Source: Anaerolineales bacterium (GTDB lineage: Bacteria > Chloroflexota > Anaerolineae > Anaerolineales > Villigracilaceae). From it: a stretch of DNA of 52,200 nt. Location: contig JANWWK010000094.1 of the NCBI GenBank assembly GCA_025056175.1, positions 1-52,200 on the forward strand, written 5' to 3'. Below are positions 6,565-36,732 of this stretch, in pieces (within the stretch, counting starts at the first letter, position 1; the number at the start of each line of letters is the position of its first letter). The position numbers were made by a program, and so were the translations under genes. The notes under the pieces were generated by a model. It did not search any database and was not told the DNA's origin. It was given only the letters and a program-made list of their open reading frames with translations.

Positions 6565-8637
6565 ATGAAAGCATTCTTTACCCGCTTTGCACTTCCTCCT
6601 GAACAACGCGGCGGCGTGGCGTTACTGCTTCTGGCGCTGACGACAGCTGCCGCCGCGCAGATGATGCTGCTCCTGTCCTATTTTGAGGATCCGGCTTACT
6701 GGGATATGCGTACATGGTTGATTGCGCTCGGCAACAACACGACGCCGCTTCCGGGGCTGGCGTTGTACGTACTTGCAGGAACTTTGTTGATTCTCAGTCT
6801 GCGCACTTTTGGGTGGCGGCTTCCTGCCTTGCCTGAAATGCGTTGTGAAGCGCAGTCTGCTCCAACACCCCGTTTTGGGTTTTGGCTCACCGCTTTTGGG
6901 CTGGCAATTCTGGCTGCAAACTATGCAGCTCGTCCTGTTGAGTCGCAGGAAAACGGCTATGCGCTCGCACTTACGTGGATTCTCAGCCTGGGGTTATTTG
7001 GGTATAGCGTCTTGAATCAAAGCGGATGGCAGACGCCCAACCGCAACGAATTGCGTGCCTGGTGGAAGCAAAACCGCCTGGAAGTGGTTGCCGTCCTGTT
7101 CCTTCTTGCACTGGCAGCTCTCTTCCGCGCGTATAACGTGGAGCGAATTCCGTATTCGATGGTCAATGATGAAGGCGAAATGGGCAAAGGGGCGCTATGT
7201 CTGCTGCGTGGTGAGTGCCGCAATATATTTGCTATTGCCTGGGCTTCCCAGCCGTATGTAGCATATTTGCCTTATGCTCTGAGCGTTGGTCTATTCGGCC
7301 ACGATGCCGCTGCGCCGGTTCGCCTGGTCAGTGTCGTGACGGGGGTTCTGGCTGTTTTGTTCCTGTATCTGTTTGCGCGCGAAGCCTTTGGTAGGCCGCT
7401 GGCCTTGAGCGCAGGGGCGATTCTGGCGGTTCTCCCCTATCACATTCATTTCAGCCGCTTAGGGGTGGATAATATCGCCGATTCGCTTTCTTCGGGCCTG
7501 ATGCTCTGGCTGGTCTGGCGCGCTATGCGTTCCGGCGGGGCCGGCTGGTACTTGCTGGCCGGAATCGTCTCCGGCTTATGCTTTTACACCTATCCTGGCA
7601 GCCGCCTGGCGCCAGCGTTGGGCTTGCTGATGTGGGGATGGGCTGCGGTCACCCGGCACGGGTTCTTGCGCGCACATTGGCGCGGCCTGGCCTTGTGGCT
7701 GGCAGCAGCCTTTCTCACCGTTGCGCCTCTGGTGGGAACCTATCAGAGTAACCCCGAATTCAACCAGCGGCTGGAAAGCGTTGGCCTGCTGCAGGGCAAC
7801 CGTTTGCAGGAAGAAATGGCCTATACCGGCCTCAGCGCCGCCCAGGTGCTGACTGTGCAATTTTTCAAATCGTTTCTGGTTTTCATCAACACGGGTGGGC
7901 CTTTCCAGTTCTTCAGCAGTCCGCGCGCCTATTTCTCTCCCATCGCCGCAGTATTTCTTATGTCAGGCCTGGCAATTGCCATTTGGAAATTTCACGACCT
8001 GCGTGTGTTGACCTTGCTCGCCTGGTTTTTTGCACCGCTGGTGTTTGGTTCAGCACTCACGGTGGGGCCGCCAAGCAACCAGCGCATGTTGGGCAGTGCG
8101 CCGGCGGCAGCCTTGCTGACCGCTTTGGGCTTGCTTGCTGTTGCACAGGCTTTATCTGTCCTGAAGTCGTTCCTGCGACATCTGAGCGTTGTCCTCGTCG
8201 TTGTTGTTCTCTTGCTGGATGGCTGGCAAAACACGCGCTACTACTTTGTAGAATATCAGCAGGGACATTTCTTTGAGGATTTGAACAACGAAATCACTTA
8301 CGAATCGCGCATGCTCATACGCTCGCTTCAGGACAGCGGGCGGTTGTTTCTCATTGGAGAGCCGATGACGCGCGTTCACTACGGCAATTTCGGTTACTTC
8401 AACCCGGATGTAGAAAAATACGATTTTAATCCCTCCCCCGAAGCCCTGAATGCCCTACCCAAAGACAGGGATGCGCTCTTTCTCGCCATCCCGTCGCGCG
8501 AAGCCGAGCTGCGCCGTATCGCGGAACAAATTCCTGGCGGAGCGTGGATAGCCGAACAACGGCGCAACCAGCCCGAATATCCCCTGTATTTTGCTTACAA
8601 AGTGAGCAAAGAGCAGTTACAATCTTACCGGCCATGA
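6565..8637 (+). CDS. Polytopic membrane glycosyltransferase, ArnT/PMT type
   Basis: This 690-residue integral membrane protein resembles the GT-C fold glycosyltransferases (PMT/ArnT families) that use polyprenyl-phosphate sugars. It has about a dozen hydrophobic segments and an acidic motif MVNDEGEMGKGA near residue 200, in the first large extracytoplasmic loop where GT-C enzymes carry catalytic Asp/Glu. A soluble tail of about 130 residues follows the last membrane helix. The start at 6565 is preferred over an in-frame ATG at 6496 because the latter lies inside the methyltransferase gene and adds no family-like sequence. It is the first of three related glycosyltransferases here, which suggests a surface glycan or glycoprotein pathway. 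Confidence 0.82.
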   Translation: MKAFFTRFALPPEQRGGVALLLLALTTAAAAQMMLLLSYFEDPAYWDMRTWLIALGNNTTPLPGLALYVLAGTLLILSLRTFGWRLPALPEMRCEAQSAPTPRFGFWLTAFGLAILAANYAARPVESQENGYALALTWILSLGLFGYSVLNQSGWQTPNRNELRAWWKQNRLEVVAVLFLLALAALFRAYNVERIPYSMVNDEGEMGKGALCLLRGECRNIFAIAWASQPYVAYLPYALSVGLFGHDAAAPVRLVSVVTGVLAVLFLYLFAREAFGRPLALSAGAILAVLPYHIHFSRLGVDNIADSLSSGLMLWLVWRAMRSGGAGWYLLAGIVSGLCFYTYPGSRLAPALGLLMWGWAAVTRHGFLRAHWRGLALWLAAAFLTVAPLVGTYQSNPEFNQRLESVGLLQGNRLQEEMAYTGLSAAQVLTVQFFKSFLVFINTGGPFQFFSSPRAYFSPIAAVFLMSGLAIAIWKFHDLRVLTLLAWFFAPLVFGSALTVGPPSNQRMLGSAPAAALLTALGLLAVAQALSVLKSFLRHLSVVLVVVVLLLDGWQNTRYYFVEYQQGHFFEDLNNEITYESRMLIRSLQDSGRLFLIGEPMTRVHYGNFGYFNPDVEKYDFNPSPEALNALPKDRDALFLAIPSREAELRRIAEQIPGGAWIAEQRRNQPEYPLYFAYKVSKEQLQSYRP

Positions 8638-22015: not shown

Positions 22016-23380
22016 ATGCAAGTTGGAACCGTACAAAAACTGATTAATATCTTCAACCAGTCCTTTCGTGAACTGGGGGCCTCAGTTTCATTGGAGAAAC
22101 TTGAAGACCTGTCTGTCACCGTTCATCGCGCGATGACCGCCCAGGCGCGTCATTTTCACACACTGGAACATGTCTTCACTTTTGTAGATGTCAACGACCC
22201 TATCCGCAATCTGGCTGCGCTCTATCATGACATCGTGTACTTTCAGGTGGATATGGGGTTTTCGCCCCCTATCTGGGAAATGATTTCCCCCTACGTGCGT
22301 CAGGAGAACACCGCCTTTATCGTTGCTGAAAATCTCAGTGCAGACGAGCGGCAGGTAGCCCTGATTCTGGACGTATTCGACTTGAAACCCGGACAGCGAC
22401 TGACATCCATTTCTGCGCTGAATGAATTCCTGAGCGCACTGGTGATGTGCAAGCAAATCGGAAGCCTGGTTTCAGACCGGGACTTGCTGCGCATTTCTCT
22501 ATGCATCGAAGCAACCATCCCTTTCCGACCCTTTACCGCAGATGGAAAATCTCATTTCGACGTGATGGAAGAGAGACTGCCCGGCATCTGTGAACGCTTC
22601 GGCATCCTTTTATCCGAAGAAGAACGCATTGCAGCCATCAAGACCGCCGTCCTGTTCGCCAACAAAGACATCGAAAACTTTGGAGAAGCCGACCCTTCGC
22701 GCTTTCTCGATAACACCTGGAACCTGCTGCCCGAAACCAACGCCGCCCTCCGCATGCCAGATGTCTATTCCATCAGCACCTATCGGCAGGCGTTGAGCAA
22801 GATGGATGCCTTTTTTGAGAACCTCGATCCCAACACCGTCTTCAATCAATATCGCGGCCTGCCCTCCGATGAAGAGTATCAGCAGTTGACACGCTACGCA
22901 CGCAACAACATTCGGATTGCGCGGGAGTTTCTACGCATTAAAATTCTCGCCACAACCATTATCGAGGCGCTGGCAAAAGCCACCGGCGGCGATGCCCCAC
23001 TCTCCCTGTTTCTGGGAGACCTGCCGCGCGAAGGTACAAGCATCAAACGGTTAGAATACTTCTTGCCGGAGATTGATTACGCACCATGGGTAGACCAGCA
23101 CTCGATTTTATACCGCCTGCTGGAGATGGGACGCACCAACGATGTCGATTTCGACATGAAAAATTCGCCGCTTTCCCTGTTCGTCTATCGCACCATGCCG
23201 CCGGAAAAAATCGAAGAAGCCATGGAACGCGCCAGAGAATTCTTTGCCGGCAGGCTTTCGGCGCACGACTTTCTGATGAGTCTCGACCCGTTCGTAGTAC
23301 AATCCATCGCTCGCGCCAGTTCCATCATGGTCTATACACGGCGGCAGGCATTGCTCAAATACGCAGGTGAGGAAAATTGA
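22016..23380 (+). CDS. Predicted HD-superfamily metal-dependent hydrolase
   Basis: This 454-residue soluble protein is not a family I can name with certainty. Residues 45-76 contain RHFHTLEHVFTF followed by LAALYHDIVYF, so His48, His52, His71 and Asp72 match the H...HD metal pattern of small HD phosphohydrolases (COG4339-like). The remaining ~370 residues are mostly helical, with no other motif I recognise. The length is about twice that of the small HD proteins, so the C-terminal region is probably a separate helical domain. It is separated from the preceding gene by about 140 bp that contain a TAGAAT -10-like string near 21914. It is coupled to the next gene by a TTGA overlap. Confidence 0.65.
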   Translation: MQVGTVQKLINIFNQSFRELGASVSLEKLEDLSVTVHRAMTAQARHFHTLEHVFTFVDVNDPIRNLAALYHDIVYFQVDMGFSPPIWEMISPYVRQENTAFIVAENLSADERQVALILDVFDLKPGQRLTSISALNEFLSALVMCKQIGSLVSDRDLLRISLCIEATIPFRPFTADGKSHFDVMEERLPGICERFGILLSEEERIAAIKTAVLFANKDIENFGEADPSRFLDNTWNLLPETNAALRMPDVYSISTYRQALSKMDAFFENLDPNTVFNQYRGLPSDEEYQQLTRYARNNIRIAREFLRIKILATTIIEALAKATGGDAPLSLFLGDLPREGTSIKRLEYFLPEIDYAPWVDQHSILYRLLEMGRTNDVDFDMKNSPLSLFVYRTMPPEKIEEAMERAREFFAGRLSAHDFLMSLDPFVVQSIARASSIMVYTRRQALLKYAGEEN

Positions 23381-23920: not shown

Positions 23921-23951
23921 CAACGCAAGCCTCTCCGCAGGAGTCTTCGTC

Positions 23952-25769
23952 ATGCCTTACGCCCCCGTCAACGACACGGAAATTTTCTATGAAACCTTTG
24001 GCGCGCTCCAGCCCGGACAAACGCCCGTTTTGCTCATTCACGGCTCCACCCAAACTGGACGTTCCTGCTGGTACAACGTCGTCAGCCGGCTGGAACGAGA
24101 ACACTTCATCATCCTGCCAGATTGTCGTGGTCACGGAAAATCTGGCAATCCCCGGCTATCCTACTCCTTCCAGGAACACGCTGCCGATATGGCCGCCCTC
24201 GTGCGTGTGCTAGGGTTCGAGCGTGCGCATATCGTAGGACACAGCAACGGCGGGAACATTGCGCTGGTAATTTTGATGGAACACCCCAGCGTGGTGCAAA
24301 CATGCGTCATTCAGGCCGGCAACGCCTGGGTCAGCCCGGATTTGGTCGAGAACGAGCCATCTGTGTTTGACCCGGAAGTGATTGCGCGGGAACGCCCATT
24401 CTGGCTACGCGAAATGCAGGAGTTGCATGCCGGTCTGGGCGCCGACTACTGGCGCGACCTGGTGCGCCTGACGGTCGAAGAAATCATCCGTGAGCCAAAC
24501 TATACCGCTGAAGACCTTGCCCGCGTGACACGCCCAGCAATGATTGTGCAGGGTGCCCAGGATGCTGTAAACGCTCCGATGAAACATGCCGAATTTATGG
24601 CGCGACACATCCCTGCCAGCGAATTGTGGGTTCCTGAAAATGTGGGACATAACGTTCACGAAGACGTCTTGAACGAGTGGCTGGCGCATGTGACCGATTT
24701 CTGGGCGCGGCGCGGCAACGCAGTGAGCGATACGCTCTACCGTTATAAACTGGAACATTACCCCGATGAGCGCGACGGCATCTTCGATGTGCGTCTGACC
24801 GCCGATGGAACGCTGACCGGCACGGTGCTGAACGAAGCCATGCACGCCGAAGCGCGCAACCTGGCAGGCAATGTCCGCGCCGACGAAATTCGCATTCTGC
24901 TAACCGCCGAAACCCCCTGGGCGCTGGTCAACCGCCCGGTCGAAGATTTGCGGCGCGGTGCCAGCCTTCTCACCGAGCGCGTCAGCCAGGTACGGATGGG
25001 CGAAGCCGTTCGGATTTTGGAACACCAGGAAGACTGGACGCGCGTATACCTTCCGCACGATGGCTATACCGGCTGGGTTCACACCCGCGCGCTGTATCCC
25101 TGTCCCGAAGCGCATGTCCGCGCCTATCAGGCAGATTGCACTGCCATTGTCTCTGCGATGCTGGCCGAAGCCTGCGACGAGCATGGCGTGCCAACCCAGA
25201 AACTTCCCTTTGCTACACAAGTCAAAATCATAGAAATTCGCGCCGAAACCGCCTGGCTCGAACTGCCGGATGGACGCCGATGGCAGGTGCGGCTGACAGA
25301 CCTGACCCTGCCGGAAGACCGACCCGACCCCACATCCGAAGGAATCGAACGCACCCTCCACCTGATGCGCCGTTTTGCTGGCGTGCCGTACCTTTGGGGT
25401 GGACGCACCCCCTACGGATTCGATTGCTCCGGCTTTGCCGGCACCTTCTACGCCTTTCTGGGCATTACCATCCCGCGCGATGCCGACCAGCAATTCATGA
25501 AAGGCCAGCCGGTCGAAGATCCACTCCAGCCGGGCGACCTGGTTTTCTTCGGCGAATTTTCCCAAGAAGACGACATCCCCGGCCCGGATGCACGCGGCTA
25601 CGTGCGAAAAGCGCGCATTACCCATGTCGGGATTTCGCTCGGCGGAGAGGATTTTATTCACGCCAATGGCACCGATTGGGGTGTTTCGTTCAATAGCTTC
25701 GACCCTGCAAGCAAACGGTATGGCAAATGGCTGGCAGAAAACTATCGCGGCGCGAGAAGATTTCGATGA
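23952..25769 (+). CDS. Alpha/beta hydrolase - SH3-like - NlpC/P60 fusion protein
   Basis: A 605-residue protein with two catalytic domains. Residues 1-255 form an alpha/beta hydrolase with nucleophile Ser98 in GHSNGG, likely Asp204 (QGAQDAV) and His233 (VGHNVHE). Residues 315-455 contain SH3-like repeats (WTRVYLPHDGYTGWVHTR). Residues 465-600 are an NlpC/P60 peptidase with Cys492 in GFDCSGF, His558 in ITHVG and His570 in FIHANG. The SH3-NlpC/P60 half resembles YkfC-type enzymes that release L-Ala-D-Glu from murein peptides. The next gene is a dipeptide epimerase, which supports that. No signal peptide, so cytoplasmic. The start has a CAGGAG site; longer in-frame starts run inside the preceding gene. 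The role of the N-terminal hydrolase is unknown. Confidence 0.85.
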   Translation: MPYAPVNDTEIFYETFGALQPGQTPVLLIHGSTQTGRSCWYNVVSRLEREHFIILPDCRGHGKSGNPRLSYSFQEHAADMAALVRVLGFERAHIVGHSNGGNIALVILMEHPSVVQTCVIQAGNAWVSPDLVENEPSVFDPEVIARERPFWLREMQELHAGLGADYWRDLVRLTVEEIIREPNYTAEDLARVTRPAMIVQGAQDAVNAPMKHAEFMARHIPASELWVPENVGHNVHEDVLNEWLAHVTDFWARRGNAVSDTLYRYKLEHYPDERDGIFDVRLTADGTLTGTVLNEAMHAEARNLAGNVRADEIRILLTAETPWALVNRPVEDLRRGASLLTERVSQVRMGEAVRILEHQEDWTRVYLPHDGYTGWVHTRALYPCPEAHVRAYQADCTAIVSAMLAEACDEHGVPTQKLPFATQVKIIEIRAETAWLELPDGRRWQVRLTDLTLPEDRPDPTSEGIERTLHLMRRFAGVPYLWGGRTPYGFDCSGFAGTFYAFLGITIPRDADQQFMKGQPVEDPLQPGDLVFFGEFSQEDDIPGPDARGYVRKARITHVGISLGGEDFIHANGTDWGVSFNSFDPASKRYGKWLAENYRGARRFR

Positions 25770-26818
25770 ATCTCACGGTTTCCCCCCTCACGCTTACGCT
25801 CAAAACCACTTTTCGCGTTGCACATGGTGCAAGCGACCAGCGCGGAAATGTGCTGGTACGGTTGGAACACGGCGGCTTCACCGGTTATGGCGAAGCCGCC
25901 GCCGTGCCATATTACGGCGATACGCAGGCAACGCTAATGGACTGGCTCAATGCGCTGCCTGCACTGGGCGAGGACCCTGATGCGTTGGAAAGTATTCTGA
26001 AGAACCTGCCGCCCGGACCCGCTGCCGCGCACGCCGCCGTAGATATGGCATTGCACGACCTGTGGGGGAAACGGCTCGGACAGCCGCTCTACCGGCTGTT
26101 CGGTCTTTCGCCCACCTGCCTGCCACAAACTTCCTTTACCATCAGCATAAACCATCCCGAAGCAATGGCGGCCGCCGCCCGTCAAAGCAGATACCCGATT
26201 CTCAAGGTCAAACTCGGCCCAGAAGACCCCGAATCTGCTCTTGCTGCCATCCGCGCGGTGACGAATGCCCGCCTGCGCGTAGATGCCAACGCTGGTTGGA
26301 CGCCCCAGCAGGCGCTGGAACTGATTCCGCGCCTGGCAGGTTATGACCTGGAGTTCATTGAACAACCCTTGCCGCCGGGCAATGCACAGGCCTACCGATG
26401 GCTGAGCGAGGAACTGCGCAAACGAGGAGTAAAAGTCAAACTCTTCGCGGATGAAAGCGTCAAAACCTCGACAGACGTGGCGCACTATGCCGGTGCTGTT
26501 GACGGCGTCGTCATTAAACTCATGAAAACCGGTGGCCTGCGCGAAGCCCTGCGCGCCATTCACACCGCACGCGCGCACGGGATGGAAATCATGCTCTCTT
26601 GCATGGTCGAGAGTACGCTGGGAGTCACCGCTGCAGCACATCTGGCCCCCCTGTGCGACTATCTCGACCTGGACGGCCCTTTGTTGATTGCCAACGACCC
26701 TTTCACTGGCATCATCTACAATGGCGCAACCCTGATTCTGCCAGATAACCCAGGATTGGGGGTGCGCTTTCTTAACGAACATCTCTCATACCGAGACAAC
26801 CGGACAGTTACGAATTAG
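25766..26818 (+). CDS. Dipeptide epimerase (L-Ala-D/L-Glu epimerase type)
   Basis: This 350-residue enolase-superfamily enzyme keeps the full muconate-lactonizing/dipeptide epimerase active site. The two-base lysines are Lys149 in ILKVKLG and Lys251 in VVIKLMKTGG. Metal ligands are Asp173 (VDANAGW), Glu199 (FIEQPLP) and Asp229 (FADES). Family members such as YkfB convert L-Ala-D-Glu from peptidoglycan to L-Ala-L-Glu. Its start overlaps the stop of the NlpC/P60 fusion (ATGA), so the two form a murein-peptide recycling pair. Other dipeptide specificities exist in the family, so L-Ala-Glu is inferred from context. Confidence 0.92.
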   Translation: MNLTVSPLTLTLKTTFRVAHGASDQRGNVLVRLEHGGFTGYGEAAAVPYYGDTQATLMDWLNALPALGEDPDALESILKNLPPGPAAAHAAVDMALHDLWGKRLGQPLYRLFGLSPTCLPQTSFTISINHPEAMAAAARQSRYPILKVKLGPEDPESALAAIRAVTNARLRVDANAGWTPQQALELIPRLAGYDLEFIEQPLPPGNAQAYRWLSEELRKRGVKVKLFADESVKTSTDVAHYAGAVDGVVIKLMKTGGLREALRAIHTARAHGMEIMLSCMVESTLGVTAAAHLAPLCDYLDLDGPLLIANDPFTGIIYNGATLILPDNPGLGVRFLNEHLSYRDNRTVTN

Positions 26819-26832: not shown

Positions 26833-27534
26833 ATGAGCGCCGCCCTTCACCTTTACCGCCTGCAACAAATAGACACCCGTCTCGACCAACTGAACGCGCG
26901 GCTTGTGGCCATTCGGAACGCACTGGAACACGACGCCGACCTGCAAGCCGCCCGCCGCAGCCAACAAGAAGCCGAAGGCCGCCTGAAAGAGGCCGAACGC
27001 GCTCTAGGAGAAGCAGAACGAGAATCTGCGGCACAACGCATTAAACTCGAACAAGCCGAAGCCAGCCTGTATAGCGGCAAAATCCACAACCCCAAAGAAC
27101 TCACCGATTTGCAAAACGATGTCGCCGCGCTCAAACGCCGCTTGAGCGCGCTGGAAGACCATCAACTGGAAGCGATGCTGGCGCTGGAAGAAGCTCGCGC
27201 CGCGCTCGAAGCCGCCCAAAAAGCCTATCTGGTCACACAGGGGCAGGTGATTAGCAAGAACGCTGCGCTCAAAACGGAACAGGATGCCCTCGAAAAGGAA
27301 CGGGAAGCGCTTCTGGCGCAGCGGCTGGCTGTTGTACCCGCTGTTCCGGCGGCCTTTCTTGCCCAATACGAAACCCTGCGCCAGCAGAAACGCGGTGTAG
27401 CCGTGACCGCGCTGAGCGATGACGCCTGCAATGCCTGCGGGGCGGTCATTACACGTGCGCATGCCCAAACGGCGCGGCACGCGCAACAGCTGGTCAACTG
27501 CCCCTCGTGCGGCAGGATTTTGTTCGCCGGTTAA
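26833..27534 (+). CDS. Coiled-coil protein with C4 zinc ribbon
   Basis: This 233-residue protein is a long helical hairpin or coiled coil (about residues 5-185, rich in Ala, Glu, Leu and Arg) followed by a C-terminal zinc ribbon with CNACG and CPSCG knuckles. This layout matches the COG1579-type predicted nucleic-acid-binding proteins. Its precise role is not known; members are thought to bind nucleic acids or act in envelope or division contexts, which I cannot resolve here. The start ATG at 26833 has a TATAAT only 7 nt upstream, indicating a probable leaderless transcript. An AAGGAGGA spanning its stop serves the next gene, so the two are likely cotranscribed. Confidence 0.85.
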   Translation: MSAALHLYRLQQIDTRLDQLNARLVAIRNALEHDADLQAARRSQQEAEGRLKEAERALGEAERESAAQRIKLEQAEASLYSGKIHNPKELTDLQNDVAALKRRLSALEDHQLEAMLALEEARAALEAAQKAYLVTQGQVISKNAALKTEQDALEKEREALLAQRLAVVPAVPAAFLAQYETLRQQKRGVAVTALSDDACNACGAVITRAHAQTARHAQQLVNCPSCGRILFAG

Positions 27535-27548
27535 GGAGGAGCCCCGTT

Positions 27549-30119
27549 ATGCGTAATTTGTTCAACTGGCTAAACTGGCCTTCCTTCTGGTTTGGTGCCA
27601 TTACAGCCACCGTCATCTGGTGGGTGCTGGCGCTCTTGCGGCCTACCTTCCGGCAAATGCTGGACTCACTGCGCGAACAACAACGCGAGCGCGCCCTGCA
27701 AGGCAACGCTGACCAGGAAACCGCCTACCGAAAAATTGTCTTCCGACAAACGCAAAGCGCACACCTGGCAGCCTCGCTTTTTGCGCTGGATGAAATTGCA
27801 ATGGAAACGCGCCTGCTGGCTCCCCCCTCGTATGCCGACCCGGGCGCGCCTCACCCGCATATCGAAATTACCGAACAGGCCATCCCTTACCTGCCCGACT
27901 ATCCCGAAATTGCCACCCTTTACAAAGACCAAACCCTGACCATTCCCGAAGCGCTCTCCGGCGGGGTCAATCTCATCCTGGTTGGGCAGCCCGGAATGGG
28001 CAAAACCACTGCCCTGGCGCACCTGGCTTCTCAAATTGTCAACCGACGCCCTGAAGTACAATCGTTGCACGAGAAAATTCCGTTCTTCATTCACGTCGCT
28101 GACCTGAATCTGCCACTCAAAGACCCCAAAAAAGCGACCGATTTCCTGAACCCGATTGTGGATAAATTGCTCGAAGTGAGCGGCGTCCTCACCGCAGGCA
28201 AGCTGCCCGGCTTCGTGGAATACGCCTTCCAGAGCGGACGCGCCTTGCTCCTGCTCGATGGTGTGGACGAACTCACTCCAAACGGTGTACAGGAAGTGAC
28301 CGCTTATCTGCGCGTCATCCTGCGCCAATTCCCGCGCGCACGGGTCATCACCACCGGTGCGCCAGAACACGTCGGTGGCCTGCTCTCACTGGGGTTTGTT
28401 CCGCTCAGCATCATGCCCTGGAATCGCCAGCAACAGCGCACGTTCCTGCAAACCTGGACGATGCTGTGGCAGAAATACGTTGCCCCCGAAGCATGGGCGC
28501 AGGCCTTCCTGACCCCAATTGACCCCATTTTGCTCAACCGCTGGCTGCTGGAGGGCAACACAGGGTTAACTCCGCTGGAATTGACCCTGAAAGTGTGGGC
28601 GGCCTACGCAGGCGATGTACGCGGCGCACGTCCGGTAGATGCCATTGAAGCCCATCTGCGCCGCCTGCTACCGCCGCAAGCACCCATCGAAGCTCTGTAT
28701 GCTATCGGCGCACAGGCCAGCCTGAACGCCTTGCCGCTCTTCGAAAGTGGACGCGCAAAAGACTGGACGAAATCGTTCGAGCCAGCCCCCTCGGCGCCTT
28801 CTGAGATGCCTGAAACCACCGCTGAACCCGTTTCAGCAGAAACAGCTGCTGCTCCCGGCGGTGCAGGCCTGTTGGGAGGCAAAAGCGCAAGCAAAAAAAA
28901 CGCTGCCCCGCCCCGTCCGGCCAGCCTGGTCTCGCAGATGACCGTCTCCGGTATTCTGGCGGCGCACGGTGGCAGCCTGGTGCGCTTTGCGCACCCGGTG
29001 TATCTGGGCTTCCTGGCCGGAAAAGCACTCAGCCCGGCCCAGGCAGAGCCGATTTTGAATCAGCCACCGTGGCTTGGACGCACAACCACCCTGCGTTATC
29101 TGGCAGCGTTTGGTGATGTGAGCGCACTGACCAACGCCCTGCTGACCACAGAAGACCATATTCTGCTCCGCCCACGGCTGACTGCGGCACGCCTGTTGCG
29201 TGATGCCCCACCCAAAGCCCCATGGCGCAGCGCCGTAATTGCTTCCCTGATTCAAATTTTACAAAACGAAGACCATCCAGCCGGCCTGCGTGCGCAGGTC
29301 ATTGCCGCCCTGGCACTGAGCGGTGAACCAAACATCGGTGCGCTTTTCCGGCAGTTGATGCTCTCCCCTTCTAACGAGCTGCGCCGTCTGGCTGCGTTGG
29401 GCGCGGGAGTGGTTCACGACTCTAAATCGGTCGAGGCGCTCATCCAGGTTCTCAATACGTCCGCTGGCGTGGCGCGACAGGCAGCCTGCCTGGCGCTGGT
29501 AGAAATCGGCACCCCCGAAGCGCTCGAAGCAATTGCCACCGCCTTGCTGAACGGAGACGAAGAGCTACGCATTGCCGCTGCCGAAGCACTCGCCAACAAC
29601 CCGGTGGAGGGTTACGAAACCCTCAAGGACGGTGTGACCAGCCAGGATATTCTTGTCCGCCGTGCGATTGTGTATGGACTGGCGCGCGTGCGCGAGGACT
29701 GGGCGCGCGACCTGCTGAGCAAAATTCCGACACAGGATGAGCAGTGGGTGGTGCGAAACGCTGCCGTAGAAATCCTGGAAGCCTTGCAACACCCTAACCC
29801 CCGCGTTCCACAACGCGAACTGCCGCCCGAACAAATGCCCTGGCTCATCGAATTTGCCGGAAAGTACGGGATGGGCGTCATCCCCGGCGAACCAGCCACC
29901 GATTTGTTCTTGCTGGCGCTCAAAGACGATAACCCCGATTACCGCCGCGCTGCGCTCCACTATCTGCGCCACACACCAACCGAAAACGTCCTGGCTGCGC
30001 TCTATCCACACCTGTACGGAGAAGACCCCGAGATGCGCGAAGGTGTCTTCCAGGTGCTGCGGGAAATGGCAATGAGCGGCGTGCGTCTGCCCGCCCCCCA
30101 AAAGTTCGGGCTGGGATAA
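27549..30119 (+). CDS. Membrane-anchored NACHT-like NTPase with HEAT repeats
   Basis: An 856-residue protein with one N-terminal membrane helix (FWFGAITATVIWWVLALL), then an NTPase domain with Walker A VGQPGMGKTTA (about residues 144-154) and Walker B ALLLLDGVDEL (about 232-242). The latter is typical of NACHT/STAND ATPases. A Pro/Ala/Ser-rich insert (about 415-455) is followed by HEAT/PBS-lyase-like helical repeats from about 550 to 840. NACHT proteins with C-terminal repeats act as switches in signalling or defence. The repeats here could be the sensor. No effector domain is visible, so a defence role is only a possibility. The start at 27549 follows a strong AAGGAGGA. Confidence 0.82.
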   Translation: MRNLFNWLNWPSFWFGAITATVIWWVLALLRPTFRQMLDSLREQQRERALQGNADQETAYRKIVFRQTQSAHLAASLFALDEIAMETRLLAPPSYADPGAPHPHIEITEQAIPYLPDYPEIATLYKDQTLTIPEALSGGVNLILVGQPGMGKTTALAHLASQIVNRRPEVQSLHEKIPFFIHVADLNLPLKDPKKATDFLNPIVDKLLEVSGVLTAGKLPGFVEYAFQSGRALLLLDGVDELTPNGVQEVTAYLRVILRQFPRARVITTGAPEHVGGLLSLGFVPLSIMPWNRQQQRTFLQTWTMLWQKYVAPEAWAQAFLTPIDPILLNRWLLEGNTGLTPLELTLKVWAAYAGDVRGARPVDAIEAHLRRLLPPQAPIEALYAIGAQASLNALPLFESGRAKDWTKSFEPAPSAPSEMPETTAEPVSAETAAAPGGAGLLGGKSASKKNAAPPRPASLVSQMTVSGILAAHGGSLVRFAHPVYLGFLAGKALSPAQAEPILNQPPWLGRTTTLRYLAAFGDVSALTNALLTTEDHILLRPRLTAARLLRDAPPKAPWRSAVIASLIQILQNEDHPAGLRAQVIAALALSGEPNIGALFRQLMLSPSNELRRLAALGAGVVHDSKSVEALIQVLNTSAGVARQAACLALVEIGTPEALEAIATALLNGDEELRIAAAEALANNPVEGYETLKDGVTSQDILVRRAIVYGLARVREDWARDLLSKIPTQDEQWVVRNAAVEILEALQHPNPRVPQRELPPEQMPWLIEFAGKYGMGVIPGEPATDLFLLALKDDNPDYRRAALHYLRHTPTENVLAALYPHLYGEDPEMREGVFQVLREMAMSGVRLPAPQKFGLG

Positions 30120-31544: not shown

Positions 31545-32219
31545 ATGACCGACTCACTGCTCTACACCATCGCCGTCTTGGGCGGCACCGGCAAAGAAGG
31601 CAAAGGACTGGCATACCGCTGGGCCAAGGCCGGCTATCGCGTCATCATTGGCTCTCGCAGCGCACAAAAAGCACAGGAGACCGCTGCCGAATTAAACGAA
31701 CGTCTGGGCGGAAACGCTGCGATTGAAGGGTTGGAGAACTTCTCCGCTGCCCAGAAGGCAGATATTGTGGTACTCACCGTCCCGTATGCCGCGCACCGCG
31801 AAACCCTTGTAAGCGTCAGAGAGGCGCTTCAGGGAAAAATTCTCGTAGATGTCACCGTGCCGCTTGTTCCCCCCAAAGTGACCAGAGTGCAAATGCCTCC
31901 TGCCGGAAGCGCCGCACAGGAAGCGCTGGAAGTTCTGGGCAAAGGGGTAGAGGTCGTGGATGCGTTTCAGAACATTTCCCACGAACACCTCCTCAACGAT
32001 GACGAAGTACCCTGTGATGTGCTGGTTACCGGCACCAGCAAAGCCGCGCGCGAGGAAGCGCTGAAACTTGTTCAGGCGGCCGGGCTCACCGGCTGGGATG
32101 CCGGTCCCATCGAAAATTCCGTTGTTGTCGAAGGGTTGACTTCGATTTTGATTCACATCAACAAGCAATATGGTGCGAGCCATGCAGGAATCAGGATAAC
32201 CGGGGTCAATGAACAGTGA
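31545..32219 (+). CDS. npdG: NADPH:F420 oxidoreductase
   Basis: This 224-residue Rossmann protein transfers hydride between NADP(H) and coenzyme F420. It begins with IAVLGGTGKEGKGLAYRWAK, the NADP-binding GGTGxEG loop of the family, followed by VIIGSRS, which contacts the 2'-phosphate. VVLTVPYAAH and the C-terminal VVEGLTSILIHIN also fit. It leads a cluster of F420 synthesis and use genes, which makes the assignment firm. An AAAAGGACG site precedes the start. The last codons and stop fall at the border of a short dispersed repeat (AATGAACAGTGAGCAGT), so the C-terminal NEQ tail may be repeat-derived. Confidence 0.95.
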   Translation: MTDSLLYTIAVLGGTGKEGKGLAYRWAKAGYRVIIGSRSAQKAQETAAELNERLGGNAAIEGLENFSAAQKADIVVLTVPYAAHRETLVSVREALQGKILVDVTVPLVPPKVTRVQMPPAGSAAQEALEVLGKGVEVVDAFQNISHEHLLNDDEVPCDVLVTGTSKAAREEALKLVQAAGLTGWDAGPIENSVVVEGLTSILIHINKQYGASHAGIRITGVNEQ

Positions 32220-32277
32220 GCAGTAAGCAGTCATCAGTGAGCGTAAACAGGTAACAACAGGTCGGCTGACTGCTGAT
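32212..32277. repeat. AGCAGT-type dispersed repeat between npdG and cofE
   Basis: A degenerate run of GTGAGCAGTAAGCAGTCATCAGTGAG, with an inverted pair AGCAGTCA (32226-32233) and TGACTGCT (32267-32274). It fills the whole npdG-cofE gap. Related runs occur at 40271-40307 and 47411-47458. Confidence 0.7.
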
Positions 32278-32284
32278 TGACAAG

Positions 32285-33055
32285 ATGAAATCTCTCACCC
32301 TCACCCCCCTCCCCAACGTTCCGCTCGTTCAACCCGGCGATGACCTCGCCGGGCTGATTCTGTCTTCCCTCGAGCAGGCAGGTATCTCTCTGCAAGACGG
32401 CGATATTCTGGTTCTGGCGCAAAAAGTGGTCAGCAAGGCCGAAAATCGCTTCGTCAACCTGGCAGAAGTGACTCCGTCTGATGCGGCGCTGAGACTGTCA
32501 CAAAAAACCGGAAAAGACCCGCGCCTGGCAGAACTCATTCTGCGCGAGAGCCGCGAGATTCTACGCACCCGTCCCGGCACGGTGATTGTCGAACATCGTC
32601 TGGGCTTTGTGTGCGCCAACGCCGGCATTGACCACTCCAACGTGGCCCCGCCCTCTTCAGGTGAGGGAGAATGGGTGCTGCTCCTGCCAGAAAACCCCGA
32701 CCAATCTGCCGCCGAAATCCGCGCCAGGCTGGAAGCGGCGAGTGGGAAACGTCTCGGTGTTCTTATTATTGACTCTCACGGGCGCGCCTGGCGGCTGGGG
32801 ACGGTCGGTTCAGCCATCGGTCTGAGCGGACTCCCCGGCCTGATAGACGAGCGCGGCTGGAGCGACCTTTTCGGTTACACACTCCAGATTACAGTTGTTG
32901 GCGTGGCCGATGAACTGGCCGCCGCCGCATCGCTGGTGATGGGGCAGGCTGCCGAAGGGACGCCCGTCGTCCACGTGCGCGGATTCCCTTACCCGCTGCA
33001 GGAAGGTTCGCTCAAAGAATTGCTGCGCCCCAAAGAGCAGGATATGTTCCGGTAA
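32285..33055 (+). CDS. cofE: Coenzyme F420-0:L-glutamate ligase
   Basis: CofE adds L-glutamate residues to F420-0 using GTP. The 256-residue length is normal. Family features are GDILVLAQKVVSKAENR, ILRESREILRTRPGTVIVEH, GFVCANAGIDHSNV, the metal region LIIDSHGRAWRLGTVGSAIG, and the C-terminal ADELAAAASLVMGQ. The mycobacterial FbiB homolog has an added C-terminal nitroreductase domain. That is absent here, but a separate nitroreductase lies two genes downstream. The first codons overlap a CCCTCACCCCCCTCCCC tract similar to dispersed repeats elsewhere in the window. Confidence 0.96.
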   Translation: MKSLTLTPLPNVPLVQPGDDLAGLILSSLEQAGISLQDGDILVLAQKVVSKAENRFVNLAEVTPSDAALRLSQKTGKDPRLAELILRESREILRTRPGTVIVEHRLGFVCANAGIDHSNVAPPSSGEGEWVLLLPENPDQSAAEIRARLEAASGKRLGVLIIDSHGRAWRLGTVGSAIGLSGLPGLIDERGWSDLFGYTLQITVVGVADELAAAASLVMGQAAEGTPVVHVRGFPYPLQEGSLKELLRPKEQDMFR

Positions 33056-33068
33056 ATGAGGAGAGACC

Positions 33069-33461
33069 ATGAAAGCGATTCCCGAAAAATATCACAACCT
33101 GCTCAAAGATGAAACCCGTGCCTTCTTGTTCCTGGCAACCGTTATGAAAGACGGCTCGCCGCAGGTCACGCCCATCTGGTTCAACCACGATGATGAACAC
33201 ATTCTGATTAACTCCGCCAGGGGACGCGTCAAAGACCGCAATATGCGCGCCCGCCCACGCGTGGCAATGGTGATTCAAGACCCGGCCAACCCCTATCGCT
33301 ACCTGCAAATTCGTGGACGGGTGGTAGAAATCACCGAAGAAGGCGGGCTGCAACACATCAACACGCTGGCGCTCAAATACACCGGCCAACCCTGGAAAGC
33401 CAACCCTGGCGAGGTGCGTGTGATTTACAAAATTTTACCCGAACGCATTGATGCACATTGA
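33069..33461 (+). CDS. F420-dependent PPOX-class split-barrel oxidoreductase
   Basis: This 130-residue protein is a pyridoxamine-5'-phosphate oxidase-like split beta-barrel: AFLFLATVMKDGSPQVTPIW, INSARGRVKDRNM and VAMVIQDPANPYRYLQIRGRV. The R-x-K-x-R-N segment and the YRYLQIRGRV strand fit the F420-binding PPOX subgroup. Members reduce varied substrates with F420H2 or bind other flavins; the natural substrate is not known. A GGAGAG site precedes the start by about 5 nt. Its place between cofE and the nitroreductase supports F420 rather than FMN as cofactor. Confidence 0.88.
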   Translation: MKAIPEKYHNLLKDETRAFLFLATVMKDGSPQVTPIWFNHDDEHILINSARGRVKDRNMRARPRVAMVIQDPANPYRYLQIRGRVVEITEEGGLQHINTLALKYTGQPWKANPGEVRVIYKILPERIDAH

Positions 33462-33506
33462 AAACCACAAAACCAGATAAGCGGCTAAGCAAATCATGAT
33501 ACGAAC

Positions 33507-34136
33507 ATGTCATCCAAAACACTTCTGAGCCTCCATACGTTTCTCCGTTCGCGCCGCTCCATTCGCAAGTTCAACGGCCAGCGTATTCCTGAGGAAATCC
33601 TGCGTGAAATCCTGGAAACGGCCACGTTTGCGCCCTCTGCGCACGGTCTTCAGCCCTGGCGTTTTGTCCTGGTCGAACACCAGGCGGCACGCCAATCTCT
33701 GGCGCTGGCGCTGACGGACAAAATGCAGGCCGACATGCGCCGCGAATCGGCCCCCGAAGCGGAAATTACTGCACGTGTAAAACGCTCAATGAAGCGCATC
33801 AGCGAAGCCCCGCACATCATCCTGCTCTGCCGCGACACCGAAGCCGTGCGCATCCAATCCCCTGAAGAAACACTGATGGGCGTGCAATCCGTTGCGATGG
33901 CTGGCCTGCAGCTGATGCTGGCCGCCCACGCGCGCGGGTTGGGCGCCAACTGGATTTGCTGGCCGCTCTACGCACAGGCAGAAGTCATCCGCGCCCTGCA
34001 CCTGCCCTCCACGTGGCAGCCGCAAGGGATGGTGTTTCTCGGTTACCCGGCGGAACAGGCAGGGGAAAAGGCGCTCAAGCCGCTCGACGAGGTGTTACTG
34101 ACAATTGACGGAACAACACCCCTGTTTTACGAATGA
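33507..34136 (+). CDS. Nitroreductase-fold protein, likely dehydro-F420-0 reductase
   Basis: This 209-residue protein has the nitroreductase fold: FLRSRRSIRKFNGQRIPEE (FMN phosphate contacts), FAPSAHGLQPWRFV, and the C-terminal MVFLGYPAEQAGEKALKP. The SAHGLQPWRF segment and overall form resemble the C-terminal domain of mycobacterial FbiB, which reduces dehydro-F420-0 made from phosphoenolpyruvate. Stand-alone versions have been described in Chloroflexi. Its position between cofE and cofD supports this role; it would let the pathway start from PEP rather than 2-phospholactate. An ordinary nitroreductase remains possible. Confidence 0.85.
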   Translation: MSSKTLLSLHTFLRSRRSIRKFNGQRIPEEILREILETATFAPSAHGLQPWRFVLVEHQAARQSLALALTDKMQADMRRESAPEAEITARVKRSMKRISEAPHIILLCRDTEAVRIQSPEETLMGVQSVAMAGLQLMLAAHARGLGANWICWPLYAQAEVIRALHLPSTWQPQGMVFLGYPAEQAGEKALKPLDEVLLTIDGTTPLFYE

Positions 34137-35116
34137 CGCACAATCCCCCCTCACAACCAACCACACTCCATCGTCCACCATCCATCGTCGCCCTGGCAGG
34201 CGGCGTGGGTGGCGCCAAACTGGCTGACGGCCTGGCGCAAATTTTGCCGCCCGAACGCCTCACCATCATCGTCAACACCGGCGATGATTTTGTTCATTGG
34301 GGACTGAACATCTCCCCCGACCTGGATACCGTCTGCTACACCCTGGCCGGGCTGGCGAACCCGCTCACCGGCTGGGGCAGGAAGGACGAGACCTGGCACG
34401 TCTTCGCGCAAATGGAACGGCTCGGCGCCGAAACCTGGTTCCGCCTGGGTGACAAAGACCTCGCCACCCACCTGGAGCGGACCCGCCGTTTGAGCAACGG
34501 CGAATCCCTCTCCAGCATCACCCGCGATTTTTGCGCACGCTGGGGAATCCGCCACACCATCCTGCCGATGAGCGACGCGCCGGTGCGAACCATCGTCGAG
34601 ACGGTGGAATTCGGCGAACTGCCCTTTCAGGAATACTTCGTCCACCAGCGCTGCGAACCAACTGTGCGGGGCTTTCGCTTCGAGGGCATTGAACGGGCAC
34701 GCCCGGCCAGTGGTGTAATGGAAGCCATACAACAGGCCGATGCGCTGGTGATTTGCCCCTCCAATCCCTGGGTCAGTATTGACCCCATTCTGCGAATCAT
34801 TTCCCCTCTTCTAGCGGAAGGGCGACCATCGGTGAGAGTTGCCGTCAGCCCCATCATCGGCGGGCAGGCGGTGAAAGGGCCAGCAGCCAAGATGTTCCGC
34901 GAATTGGGAATAGAACCTTCGGCGCTGGCGGTTGCCCGGCACTACGGCCGCACGTTGTTGACCGGGTTTGTCCTGGATGAGAGCGATTCCGATTTAGCAG
35001 CAGATGTTCAAGCACTGGGAATTCATCCAGCCGTCACCCAAACCTTAATGAAAACTTCGGACGACCGCCGTCAACTGGCACAAGATGTGCTACACTTGAT
35101 AGAGCAATTTGTATGA
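34133..35116 (+). CDS. cofD: 2-phospho-L-lactate (or enolpyruvyl) transferase
   Basis: CofD/FbiA transfers the phospholactyl or phosphoenolpyruvyl group from the guanylylated donor to Fo. The core starts at IVALAGGVGGAKLADGL; further motifs are TIIVNTGDDFVHWGLNISPD, DTVCYTLAGLANP and ALVICPSNPWVSIDPIL. The 327-residue length is near the family norm. The first ~17 residues (MTHNPPSQPTTLHRPPS) precede the family start and are encoded by a small CCATCGTC repeat at 34168-34189, so they look like an added tail. The ATG overlaps the nitroreductase stop (ATGA). Confidence 0.95.
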   Translation: MTHNPPSQPTTLHRPPSIVALAGGVGGAKLADGLAQILPPERLTIIVNTGDDFVHWGLNISPDLDTVCYTLAGLANPLTGWGRKDETWHVFAQMERLGAETWFRLGDKDLATHLERTRRLSNGESLSSITRDFCARWGIRHTILPMSDAPVRTIVETVEFGELPFQEYFVHQRCEPTVRGFRFEGIERARPASGVMEAIQQADALVICPSNPWVSIDPILRIISPLLAEGRPSVRVAVSPIIGGQAVKGPAAKMFRELGIEPSALAVARHYGRTLLTGFVLDESDSDLAADVQALGIHPAVTQTLMKTSDDRRQLAQDVLHLIEQFV

Positions 35117-35730
35117 CAATTTGGACTATCGTCCCCGTCAAACCGTTGCGGCTGGGAAAATCTCGCCTCTCTGGTGTGCTGACTGATGACGAGCGCGGCA
35201 TCTTGAATCGCAAATTCCTGGAGCAAACCCTGCAAACACTCCGGGAAATGCCCGAAATCTCGCAGACGCTCGTTGTCAGCCGCGACCCTGCCGCCCTTGC
35301 CATTGCCCGCGAATTCGGTGCGCGCACCGTGCTGGAAGACGGCAATCCCAATCTGAACCAGGCGCTCGCGCGTGCAACGCTGTTAGCACGAAATTACGCC
35401 ACCCGCGGCGTGCTGGTTTTACCTGCTGACCTGCCGCTGCTCACCGCCGAGGACATACGTGGTTTGCTCGACCGGGCGCGCCAAACCCCTTGCGTGGTGA
35501 TTGCTCCCGACCGTCACCAGGACGGAACAAATGCGTTGTTTATGAACCCCGGCGGTATCATCCCCTATAGTTTTGGGCCAGGCTCATTTCAGCGGCATTG
35601 CGAATCCGCACAAAAGGTCGGCGCACGCCTGGAAATCGTGCAAAACGCGCACTTCGGATTAGACCTGGATACGCCCGCAGATTTACGCATTCTCAAATCA
35701 CTCGAAGATTCGGTCATCGAAAGGAGATAA
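35113..35730 (+). CDS. cofC: Phospholactate/PEP guanylyltransferase
   Basis: CofC/FbiD activates 2-phospholactate or phosphoenolpyruvate with GTP for CofD. The 205-residue protein has the nucleotidyltransferase fold starting TIVPVKPLRLGKSRLSGVLT, then LVLPADLPLLTAEDI with the metal Asp, and APDRHQDGTNALFMNP. These match the family in order and spacing. It overlaps cofD by an ATGA. The presence of a dehydro-F420-0 reductase candidate in the same cluster suggests PEP as the substrate, but the sequence alone does not prove it. Confidence 0.95.
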   Translation: MTIWTIVPVKPLRLGKSRLSGVLTDDERGILNRKFLEQTLQTLREMPEISQTLVVSRDPAALAIAREFGARTVLEDGNPNLNQALARATLLARNYATRGVLVLPADLPLLTAEDIRGLLDRARQTPCVVIAPDRHQDGTNALFMNPGGIIPYSFGPGSFQRHCESAQKVGARLEIVQNAHFGLDLDTPADLRILKSLEDSVIERR

Positions 35731-35736
35731 AAAACA

Positions 35737-36732
35737 ATGGCTCGTGTTGCTCTCTATTTGCAAGATTCGCACGACCTGCGCGATGGGCTGGACTACGCCC
35801 GCTATGCAGAAGAAAAAGGGTTCGAGGCCGTATGGCAAGCCGAAAGCCGTCTGGTGCGCGATGCCATCGTGCCGATGGCCGCTTATGCTGCCGTCACCCA
35901 ACACATCAAAGTTGGGTCCGGCGTTATTAACAACTGGACACGCAATATCGGTCTGCTGGCAGCCACGTTTCTGACGCTGGATGACCTGGCCCCGGGCCGC
36001 ATCATTTGCGGCATCGGCGCATGGTGGGACCCCCTGGCGAAGAACGTCGGTATCGAACGCAAAAAACCCCTGCTGGCAATGAAAGAAACCGTTTTGACCA
36101 TGCGCCGCCTGCTCAACATGGAGCGTGTTACGTTTCACGGCGAATTCGTTCACGTAGATGGCATCGAACTGGATGTGGTGCATGGACGCCGTGAGCCACG
36201 CAACGTGCCAATTATGATTGGCGCAACCGGCGATATGATGATGGAATTGACCGGTGAAATCGCCGATGGCGTGGTGTTGAACTATTGTGTCGCCCCAGAA
36301 TACAACGACAAAGCACTCGAATTACTCGATAAGGGCGCCAAAAAGGCCGGGCGGCGCGTCGAAGACCTCGACCGTCCGCAACTGATTGTCTGTTCGGTAG
36401 ACGATGACCATGATAAAGCAATAGATACGACCAAAATGCTCTTGTGCCAGTATATTGCCCAGCAGCCGCACATTGCCAAAGCCAGCAAGGTGAGTGACGA
36501 GGTGGTGCATGAAATTCAATCAATTCTGGGCTGGCCGGCAACCAAAGAGCAAATCAACAAGGCCAAGCACCTCGTGCCAGATGAACTGGTTCACAAAATT
36601 ACTGCCTCTGGCACACCCGCAGAAGCGCGCGCCAAAGTGCAGGAATATGTCAACCGCGGCTGTACCTGCCCGATACTGTATGCGGCAGGCGGCAACGTGA
36701 AGAAGTTGATTGACACCTTTGCCCAACAATAA
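35737..36732 (+). CDS. LLM-class F420-dependent oxidoreductase
   Basis: This 331-residue TIM-barrel protein belongs to the luciferase-like monooxygenase superfamily, F420-dependent branch: [52 protein letters not shown] and [27 protein letters not shown]. The form is close to methylenetetrahydromethanopterin reductase (Mer) type proteins, but the substrate cannot be told from sequence. The start has AAAGGAG about 10 nt upstream and follows cofC by 6 bp, so it is the last gene of the F420 operon, which ends at the terminator at 36752. Confidence 0.92.

Follow-up and report, generated by a model that had tools for sequence, protein, structure and literature searches.

An alpha/beta hydrolase fused to a YkfC-type NlpC/P60 peptidase recurs in Anaerolineae and probably acts in murein-peptide breakdown

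Is a protein in which an alpha/beta hydrolase (ABH) precedes an NlpC/P60 peptidase of the YkfC type a genuine product of its genome, and what would the hydrolase contribute? The question is raised by a stretch of 52,200 nucleotides (hereafter the window; contig JANWWK010000094.1, assembly GCA_025056175.1) from an Anaerolineales bacterium of the Villigracilaceae (Chloroflexota; Anaerolineae), in which such a fusion gene is overlapped by a gene for a predicted dipeptide epimerase. A first-pass annotation, made from the sequence alone, had described the pair as murein-peptide recycling genes with an unusual extra hydrolase. The fusion is real. We suggest that it encodes a cytoplasmic bifunctional protein in murein-peptide breakdown, to which we give a probability of about 0.7; this figure covers the pathway and the bifunctionality, and not the bond cut by the ABH.

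The open reading frame (ORF) of 605 residues is unbroken from the ATG at 23952 to the TGA at 25767-25769. Along it Pfam places Abhydrolase_1/6, SH3_16 (residues 334-381) and NLPC_P60 (477-584), so the order first proposed, a hydrolase ahead of SH3-like and NlpC/P60 domains, is borne out. The AlphaFold model has a mean pLDDT of 96.3 for the ABH alone and 90.2 for the whole fusion protein. An assembly artefact or a frameshift would have been suggested by separate genes in relatives with a stop at about residue 260, as the first-pass annotation pointed out, and in several relatives ABH and NlpC are indeed separate genes, the ABH ending near residue 258. There, however, the ABH and YkfC genes are divergent, on opposite strands, so that no single base change would turn them into one ORF. 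An open fused frame also occurs in other genomes of the genus, in further genomes of the class and in 34 loci of named genomes. As these ORFs lie on independent contigs, the window's fusion cannot be a product of misassembly, and an artefact of either kind has next to no probability.

In a set of 61 genomes (the window's own and 60 relatives) four have the full-length fusion, and they all belong to the window's genus (G000, G002, G003, G007; G and L numbers are genome and locus labels). The three further genomes of the genus carry a full-length fused ORF with 66-75% identity. In the class sample 13 of 396 genomes have the fusion, the window's own included; 11 gave one full-length match, and G176 and G209 gave two matches within one ORF. 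In the phylum sample (400 genomes, E 1e-40) only the window's own genome has it. A scan of named genomes gave 20 pattern matches, none of them a relative, with a single protein as query, and 64 loci with an alignment as query. L157 (Verrucomicrobia) and L158 (Rhizobiales) are generic hydrolases with 25-28% identity and were left out, leaving 62 Chloroflexota loci. The 34 fused loci are all among these, and three of them (L097, L120, L122) run to the contig end. The fused ORF of L126 is interrupted within NlpC (at about 7122-7251) and continues in another frame, which may reflect a frameshift, an error or a decayed gene. Three of the 34 fused loci are also in the 61-genome set and 14 are probably the same records as genomes in the other samples, so the counts of the samples should not be summed. 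The epithet "unusual" therefore holds in one respect, in that the ABH is confirmed to stand outside the standard YkfABC set; it does not hold in the other, since the architecture recurs in Anaerolineae and is no single oddity.

Judged by alignment, the YkfC half is complete and retains the residues that are key to the binding of L-Ala-gamma-D-Glu in Bacillus cereus YkfC (BcYkfC). Its best sequence matches are solved dipeptidyl-peptidase VI/YkfC proteins (3npf, E 1.2e-24; 3pvq; 3h41), and a fold search with the whole model likewise ranks such proteins first, with about 300 columns aligned with 4r0k, 3npf and 3h41. These three share with the fusion the SH3b-SH3b-NlpC/P60 order, the Cys-His-His triad and the residues for free L-Ala and gamma-D-Glu; the fusion differs in having the ABH and a small linker module in front, and identity is about 22-27%. 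The ligand-holding residues were taken from the BcYkfC paper (PMC2954226) and mapped by sequence alignment; the mapped set is without Glu83, which binds through its backbone, and Thr84 of BcYkfC. The alignment comprises 34 fusions, namely the window's and those of 33 loci, L126 being excluded. Tyr372, Tyr480, Trp482, Asp491, Cys492, Ser493, Arg509, Asp510, His558 and His570 are kept in all 34, and the triad of the peptidase (Cys492, His558, His570) is among them. The exceptions, in BcYkfC numbering, are Ala229 (Gly in 34), His290 (Thr in 24, Ser in 10) and Ser257 (Ala in 33); Ala at 257 occurs in dipeptidyl-peptidase VI too (PMC2954226). In 37 aligned unfused YkfC proteins of Chloroflexota the 11 checked positions are kept, with one gap at the SH3b Tyr, and position 257 is Ala. 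Asp256 and the SH3b Tyr118 are described as marks of YkfC enzymes for a free N-terminal L-Ala (PMC2954226, section 3.10), and their equivalents Asp510 and Tyr372 are present in every aligned fusion. The window's genome has one NlpC/P60 match.

A signal peptide is predicted for BcYkfC, and the wall is the target of many NlpC/P60 proteins (PMC2954226), which would fit a secreted cell-wall hydrolase instead of a cytoplasmic recycling enzyme. In the fusion protein, by contrast, the ABH starts at residue 1 and no hydrophobic leader is seen by eye ahead of it, which makes a cytoplasmic location the most likely one. Nor is a leader seen by eye in the 12 divergent YkfC proteins of relatives (the start is uncertain in some), and Tyr372 and Asp510 are marks of enzymes for peptides with free L-Ala. 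Secretion is accordingly very improbable.

The gene that follows the fusion might start at ATG 25727 or at ATG 25766, the latter as an ATGA shared with the fusion stop. The second start agrees with that of the closest solved homologue, 3iji (E 2e-67), which aligns from its residue 1, and the overlap noted by the first-pass annotation stands. The L-Ala-D/L-Glu epimerase of Bacillus subtilis, 1jpm, matches at E 9.5e-44. K148, K150, D174, E200, D230, K252, D302 and D304 are conserved in at least 97% of 41 aligned proteins and align with 1jpm; the enolase-superfamily catalytic residues are present, as is the D-x-D motif, which we take to be the mark of dipeptide epimerases. In adjoining the YkfC gene it also resembles YkfB. 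The window's genome encodes two other members of the family, both more distant (39% and 33%).

The association of the three enzymes extends beyond the window. The epimerase gene is next downstream on the same strand in 27 of the 34 fused loci; of the seven others, L097, L108, L120 and L122 end at or no more than 0.5 kb from the contig end, while L121 (with 0.9 kb left), L125 and L127 show none. Among the 28 loci with a separate ABH, ten have YkfC divergent from an ABH-epimerase pair, two (L138, L149) have YkfC and ABH divergent and end before any epimerase, and three have ABH and epimerase with no YkfC nearby. A tree of 71 YkfC proteins gathers the 34 fused rows into one lineage (support 100), which also takes in L087, a truly unfused protein, and L181, truncated at the contig start and possibly fused; all 12 divergent YkfC proteins sit in the other lineage (support 100). 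The ABH tree (61 rows) places the clade from the divergent loci among the fused rows with modest support, and the epimerase tree (57 rows) places nine epimerases from divergent loci and 11 from fused loci on one branch (98). All of these are quick trees without bootstrap, from which the direction of change between fused and separate arrangements is not readable. That the ABH is coupled to YkfC in two arrangements, each with a YkfC lineage of its own, would be unlikely unless ABH and YkfC shared a function or pathway. The YkfC of L087 (genome G383) is without an ABH, its match beginning at query residue 56, and adjoins an epimerase; this genome also has an S66 carboxypeptidase.

The genes around the fused loci were clustered, and one representative per cluster of interest was scanned. 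Dpp/Opp-type (oligopeptide) permeases lie near 13 of the 34 loci, an M55 D-aminopeptidase near 10 and a family-5 solute-binding protein near seven. Other neighbours include diaminopimelate (DAP) decarboxylase (L101, L103), the exo-muramidase NamZ (L110, L118, L123), GH20 (L116, L118, L123), a GntR-UTRA regulator (L118, L123) and an M19 dipeptidase (L107, L109). The transporters, D-aminopeptidase, DAP decarboxylase and NamZ support a role in murein-peptide catabolism. The B. subtilis ykf genes adjoin dpp (PMC2954226) and are comparable in keeping YkfC and epimerase together, as are several relatives that also have peptide-transporter genes and the M55 D-aminopeptidase; the present system differs in the fusion of ABH to YkfC, in having no S66 in the 16 fused genomes examined, and in the window having no adjoining transporter.

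Taken with the specificity residues of YkfC and the coupled epimerase, this gene context gives good support to the recycling role first proposed. From residues and fold, the YkfC half would cut the gamma-D-Glu-diamino acid bond of peptides with free L-Ala, yielding L-Ala-D-Glu, and the translationally overlapped epimerase would, by homology, convert this to L-Ala-L-Glu. The ABH, given its two different couplings to YkfC and epimerase, would work in the same stream of peptides; its pairing with YkfC recurs so often that a further step in the recycling of cell-wall material is its probable role.

Several observations weigh against this interpretation. The neighbours within the window are not peptide-uptake genes: upstream lies the gene of a PH-domain protein, and downstream lie those of a coiled-coil zinc-ribbon protein and a NACHT-HEAT protein. 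In 13 of the 62 Chloroflexota loci the ABH has neither partner nearby, and the epimerases of the three ABH-epimerase loci with no YkfC group with 13 from ABH-less loci (98) and not with the other ABH-linked ones. The ABH has Asn99 at the position of the amine-binding Asp123 of the human valacyclovir hydrolase/BPHL, its closest structural match (see below), and BPHL itself reportedly shows hardly any activity towards peptidase substrates (PMC4198189). The scores of the epimerase fall short of every curated NCBIfam cut-off (PRK15129, 152.8 of 343 bits; NF041118, 110.9 of 500), in which it is unlike YkfB; DgcA, an N-acetyl-D-Glu racemase, scores above the L-Ala-D/L-Glu epimerase (AEE) models and is the top NCBIfam match, also below its cut-off (239.5 of 400 bits). 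Yet DUF1611, presumably DgcN, the partner of DgcA, occurs in none of 27 genomes, so DgcA was rejected and a dipeptide epimerase is preferred. The missed cut-offs may reflect a divergent L-Ala-D/L-Glu epimerase or a neighbouring specificity.

The step added by the ABH may, as the first-pass annotation put it, be that of an amidase, esterase or peptidase. Its Ser-Asp-His set (Ser98, Asp204, His233), called complete in the first-pass annotation, is identical in 34 of 34 aligned fusions, and the triad of the BPHL fold is present and aligned. Ranked by VIA-align Z the top structural match is BPHL (2ocg; Z 31.4, rmsd 2.0 over 241 residues, 26% identity), followed by Est1 (29.7). The ABH profile matches BPHL across residues 4-252, and both have the ANAYV and HN-x-H motifs; the AHL-degrading esterase 5egn does slightly better in the profile search, over a shorter best stretch. 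The bacterial, YkfC-fused domain is set apart from BPHL by Asn99, found in 14 of 14 fusions collected without a motif and in 61 of 61 aligned ABHs, although this constancy is partly built into the 64-locus set, many of whose loci were picked by the pattern GHSNGGN. The ABH is nearer to the window's sequence than the YkfC half in all 34 fused loci (51-79% against 37-72%). The curated NCBIfam cut-offs for S33 prolyl aminopeptidase/proline iminopeptidase were missed (TIGR01249, 41.8 of 259.75 bits; TIGR01250, 40.8 of 167.65).

As a working mechanism, we propose tentatively that the ABH is a third enzyme of the pathway which would split the epimerase product L-Ala-L-Glu into free amino acids. This substrate is proposed because free L-Ala suits the pathway and because its cleavage is otherwise not covered by the gene pair. 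In Escherichia coli this step is that of PepD (PMC2954226, introduction), and in the available parts of the sources cited no dedicated L-Ala-L-Glu-splitting partner is named beside YkfB and YkfC. A dipeptidase is made less likely by the absence of the amine-binding Asp and by the weak amidase activity of the closest relative, which bring an amino-acid ester or lactone hydrolase close behind. In that alternative the ABH, like BPHL, would remove an aminoacyl ester or a reactive lactone encountered as peptides are broken down, and leave peptide bonds alone. The structural Z, the long profile match and the preference of BPHL for esters and thiolactones whose alpha-amino group is free (PMC4198189) are in its favour. 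That amine is neutralised in BPHL by Asp123 (PMC4198189), the very residue replaced in the ABH, and in order of Foldseek E-value Est1 and several other esterases and lactonases rank above BPHL. No ester is known to us in murein-peptide breakdown. We regard an ester or lactone hydrolase as somewhat doubtful.

A replacement of the L,D-carboxypeptidase YkfA/LdcA (S66), trimming terminal D-Ala ahead of YkfC, seems unlikely. S66 is found in 0 of 16 fusion genomes, and G383, with its ABH-less YkfC of the fused lineage, has one; but S66 is rare across the class (30 of 396 genomes), so that its absence from 16 is not informative and the proposal loses most of its support. G005 and G034 carry both a separate ABH and S66, YkfC itself also accepts tetra- and pentapeptides (PMC2954226), and the fusion protein has no Pfam match to Peptidase_S66 at E 0.1. 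The coordinates of the features are collected in Table 1.

Table 1. Features of the fusion gene and the overlapping epimerase gene (positions in the window).
Feature	Position	Strand	Residues and sites	Basis
Fusion gene, ABH-SH3b-SH3b-NlpC/P60	23952..25769	+	605 aa + stop	ORF call, Pfam, AlphaFold model
GGAG, ribosome-binding-like	23940..23943	+	8 nt 5' of the fusion ATG	read from sequence
ABH	23952..24740	+	1-263; Ser98 (24243-24245), Asp204 (24561-24563), His233 (24648-24650)	Pfam, conservation, model, fold matches
Linker, small strand-strand-helix-strand module	24741..24899	+	264-316	model secondary structure, blast coverage
Two SH3b domains	24900..25331	+	about 317-460 (boundaries inferred); S2-site Tyr372 (25065-25067)	Pfam SH3_16, fold alignment
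NlpC/P60 peptidase	25332..25766	+	about 461-605; Cys492 (25425-25427), Asp510 (25479-25481), His558 (25623-25625), His570 (25659-25661)	Pfam, residues mapped from PMC2954226
Dipeptide (L-Ala-D/L-Glu type) epimerase gene, enolase superfamily	25766..26818	+		homology, conserved residues, ATGA overlap with fusion stop

The linker module resembles the N-terminus of unfused YkfC in relatives, as judged by blast coverage and the N-termini of divergent YkfC proteins. A BON domain was considered for it and is not claimed, the match being weak (E 0.054). Between 23600 and 27100, three promoter-like and three terminator-like sites were found against 1.2 and 3.9 expected from shuffles, which is nothing notable, and PHROGs gave generic esterase and tail-protein matches. 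Elsewhere in the window, 22016-23380, just upstream of the neighbourhood of the fusion, encodes a protein of 454 aa with no Pfam or NCBIfam match, and a homologous cluster adjoins the epimerase in L105, L106 and L111. The NACHT ATPase with HEAT repeats (870 aa) is encoded at 27507-30119. An F420-related run at 31545-36732 comprises an F420 oxidoreductase-type protein, F420 ligase, nitroreductase, CofD, CofC and a luciferase-like monooxygenase. Among the named-genome loci, L129 and L132 have a solitary ABH after an arginase-family gene (a member of the cluster is also found in L148), from which no clear function emerges.

Outside the class, unfused YkfC was found in eight genomes. Of the six neighbourhoods viewed, five have the epimerase adjoining, and at the sixth, L182, the corresponding place is overlapped by an epimerase ORF. 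In L183-L187 a small gene overlaps or abuts the start of the unfused YkfC gene, followed by the epimerase; a weak acetyltransferase match was obtained for it (L184, E 0.0035). None of 72,556 plasmid records covers 80% of the fusion at E 1e-20, and five match the YkfC half. Three of these five were viewed (L190, L191 and L192, plasmids of Halorussus halophilus, Halostagnicola larsenii and Natrialba magadii), and they have YkfC-like NlpC/P60 genes adjoining genes annotated as dipeptide epimerases, in company with serine hydrolases or an S9-type peptidase and, in Natrialba, with lysA. To our knowledge haloarchaea have no murein of their own, and these genes possibly serve the scavenging of bacterial wall peptides.

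No description of an ABH-YkfC fusion was found in the literature searched, which covered few subscription papers, and none of the YkfC/YkfB literature found concerns Chloroflexi. A survey of 2010 found most YkfC-like proteins in Bacteroidetes, cyanobacteria, firmicutes and proteobacteria (PMC2954226), to which Chlamydia has since been added (PMC9928106). Chloroflexota, with an architecture of its own, joins the phyla listed for such proteins. The fusion recurs in Chloroflexota, mostly in Anaerolineae, and is probably a bifunctional enzyme of a known pathway, with the ABH as an uncharacterised catalytic domain. With its fusion to YkfC in many Anaerolineae and its pairing elsewhere with a second YkfC lineage, the ABH is a concrete candidate for the L-Ala-L-Glu step. 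That it represents a new family of serine dipeptidases, or of other murein-peptide hydrolases, which completes the breakdown of murein peptides is a speculative proposal. If true, two overlapping genes would encode the entire path from L-Ala-D-Glu-diamino acid to free amino acids, with intermediates passed on among the fused active sites and the epimerase, and two separate YkfC lineages would each have acquired the ABH to this end.

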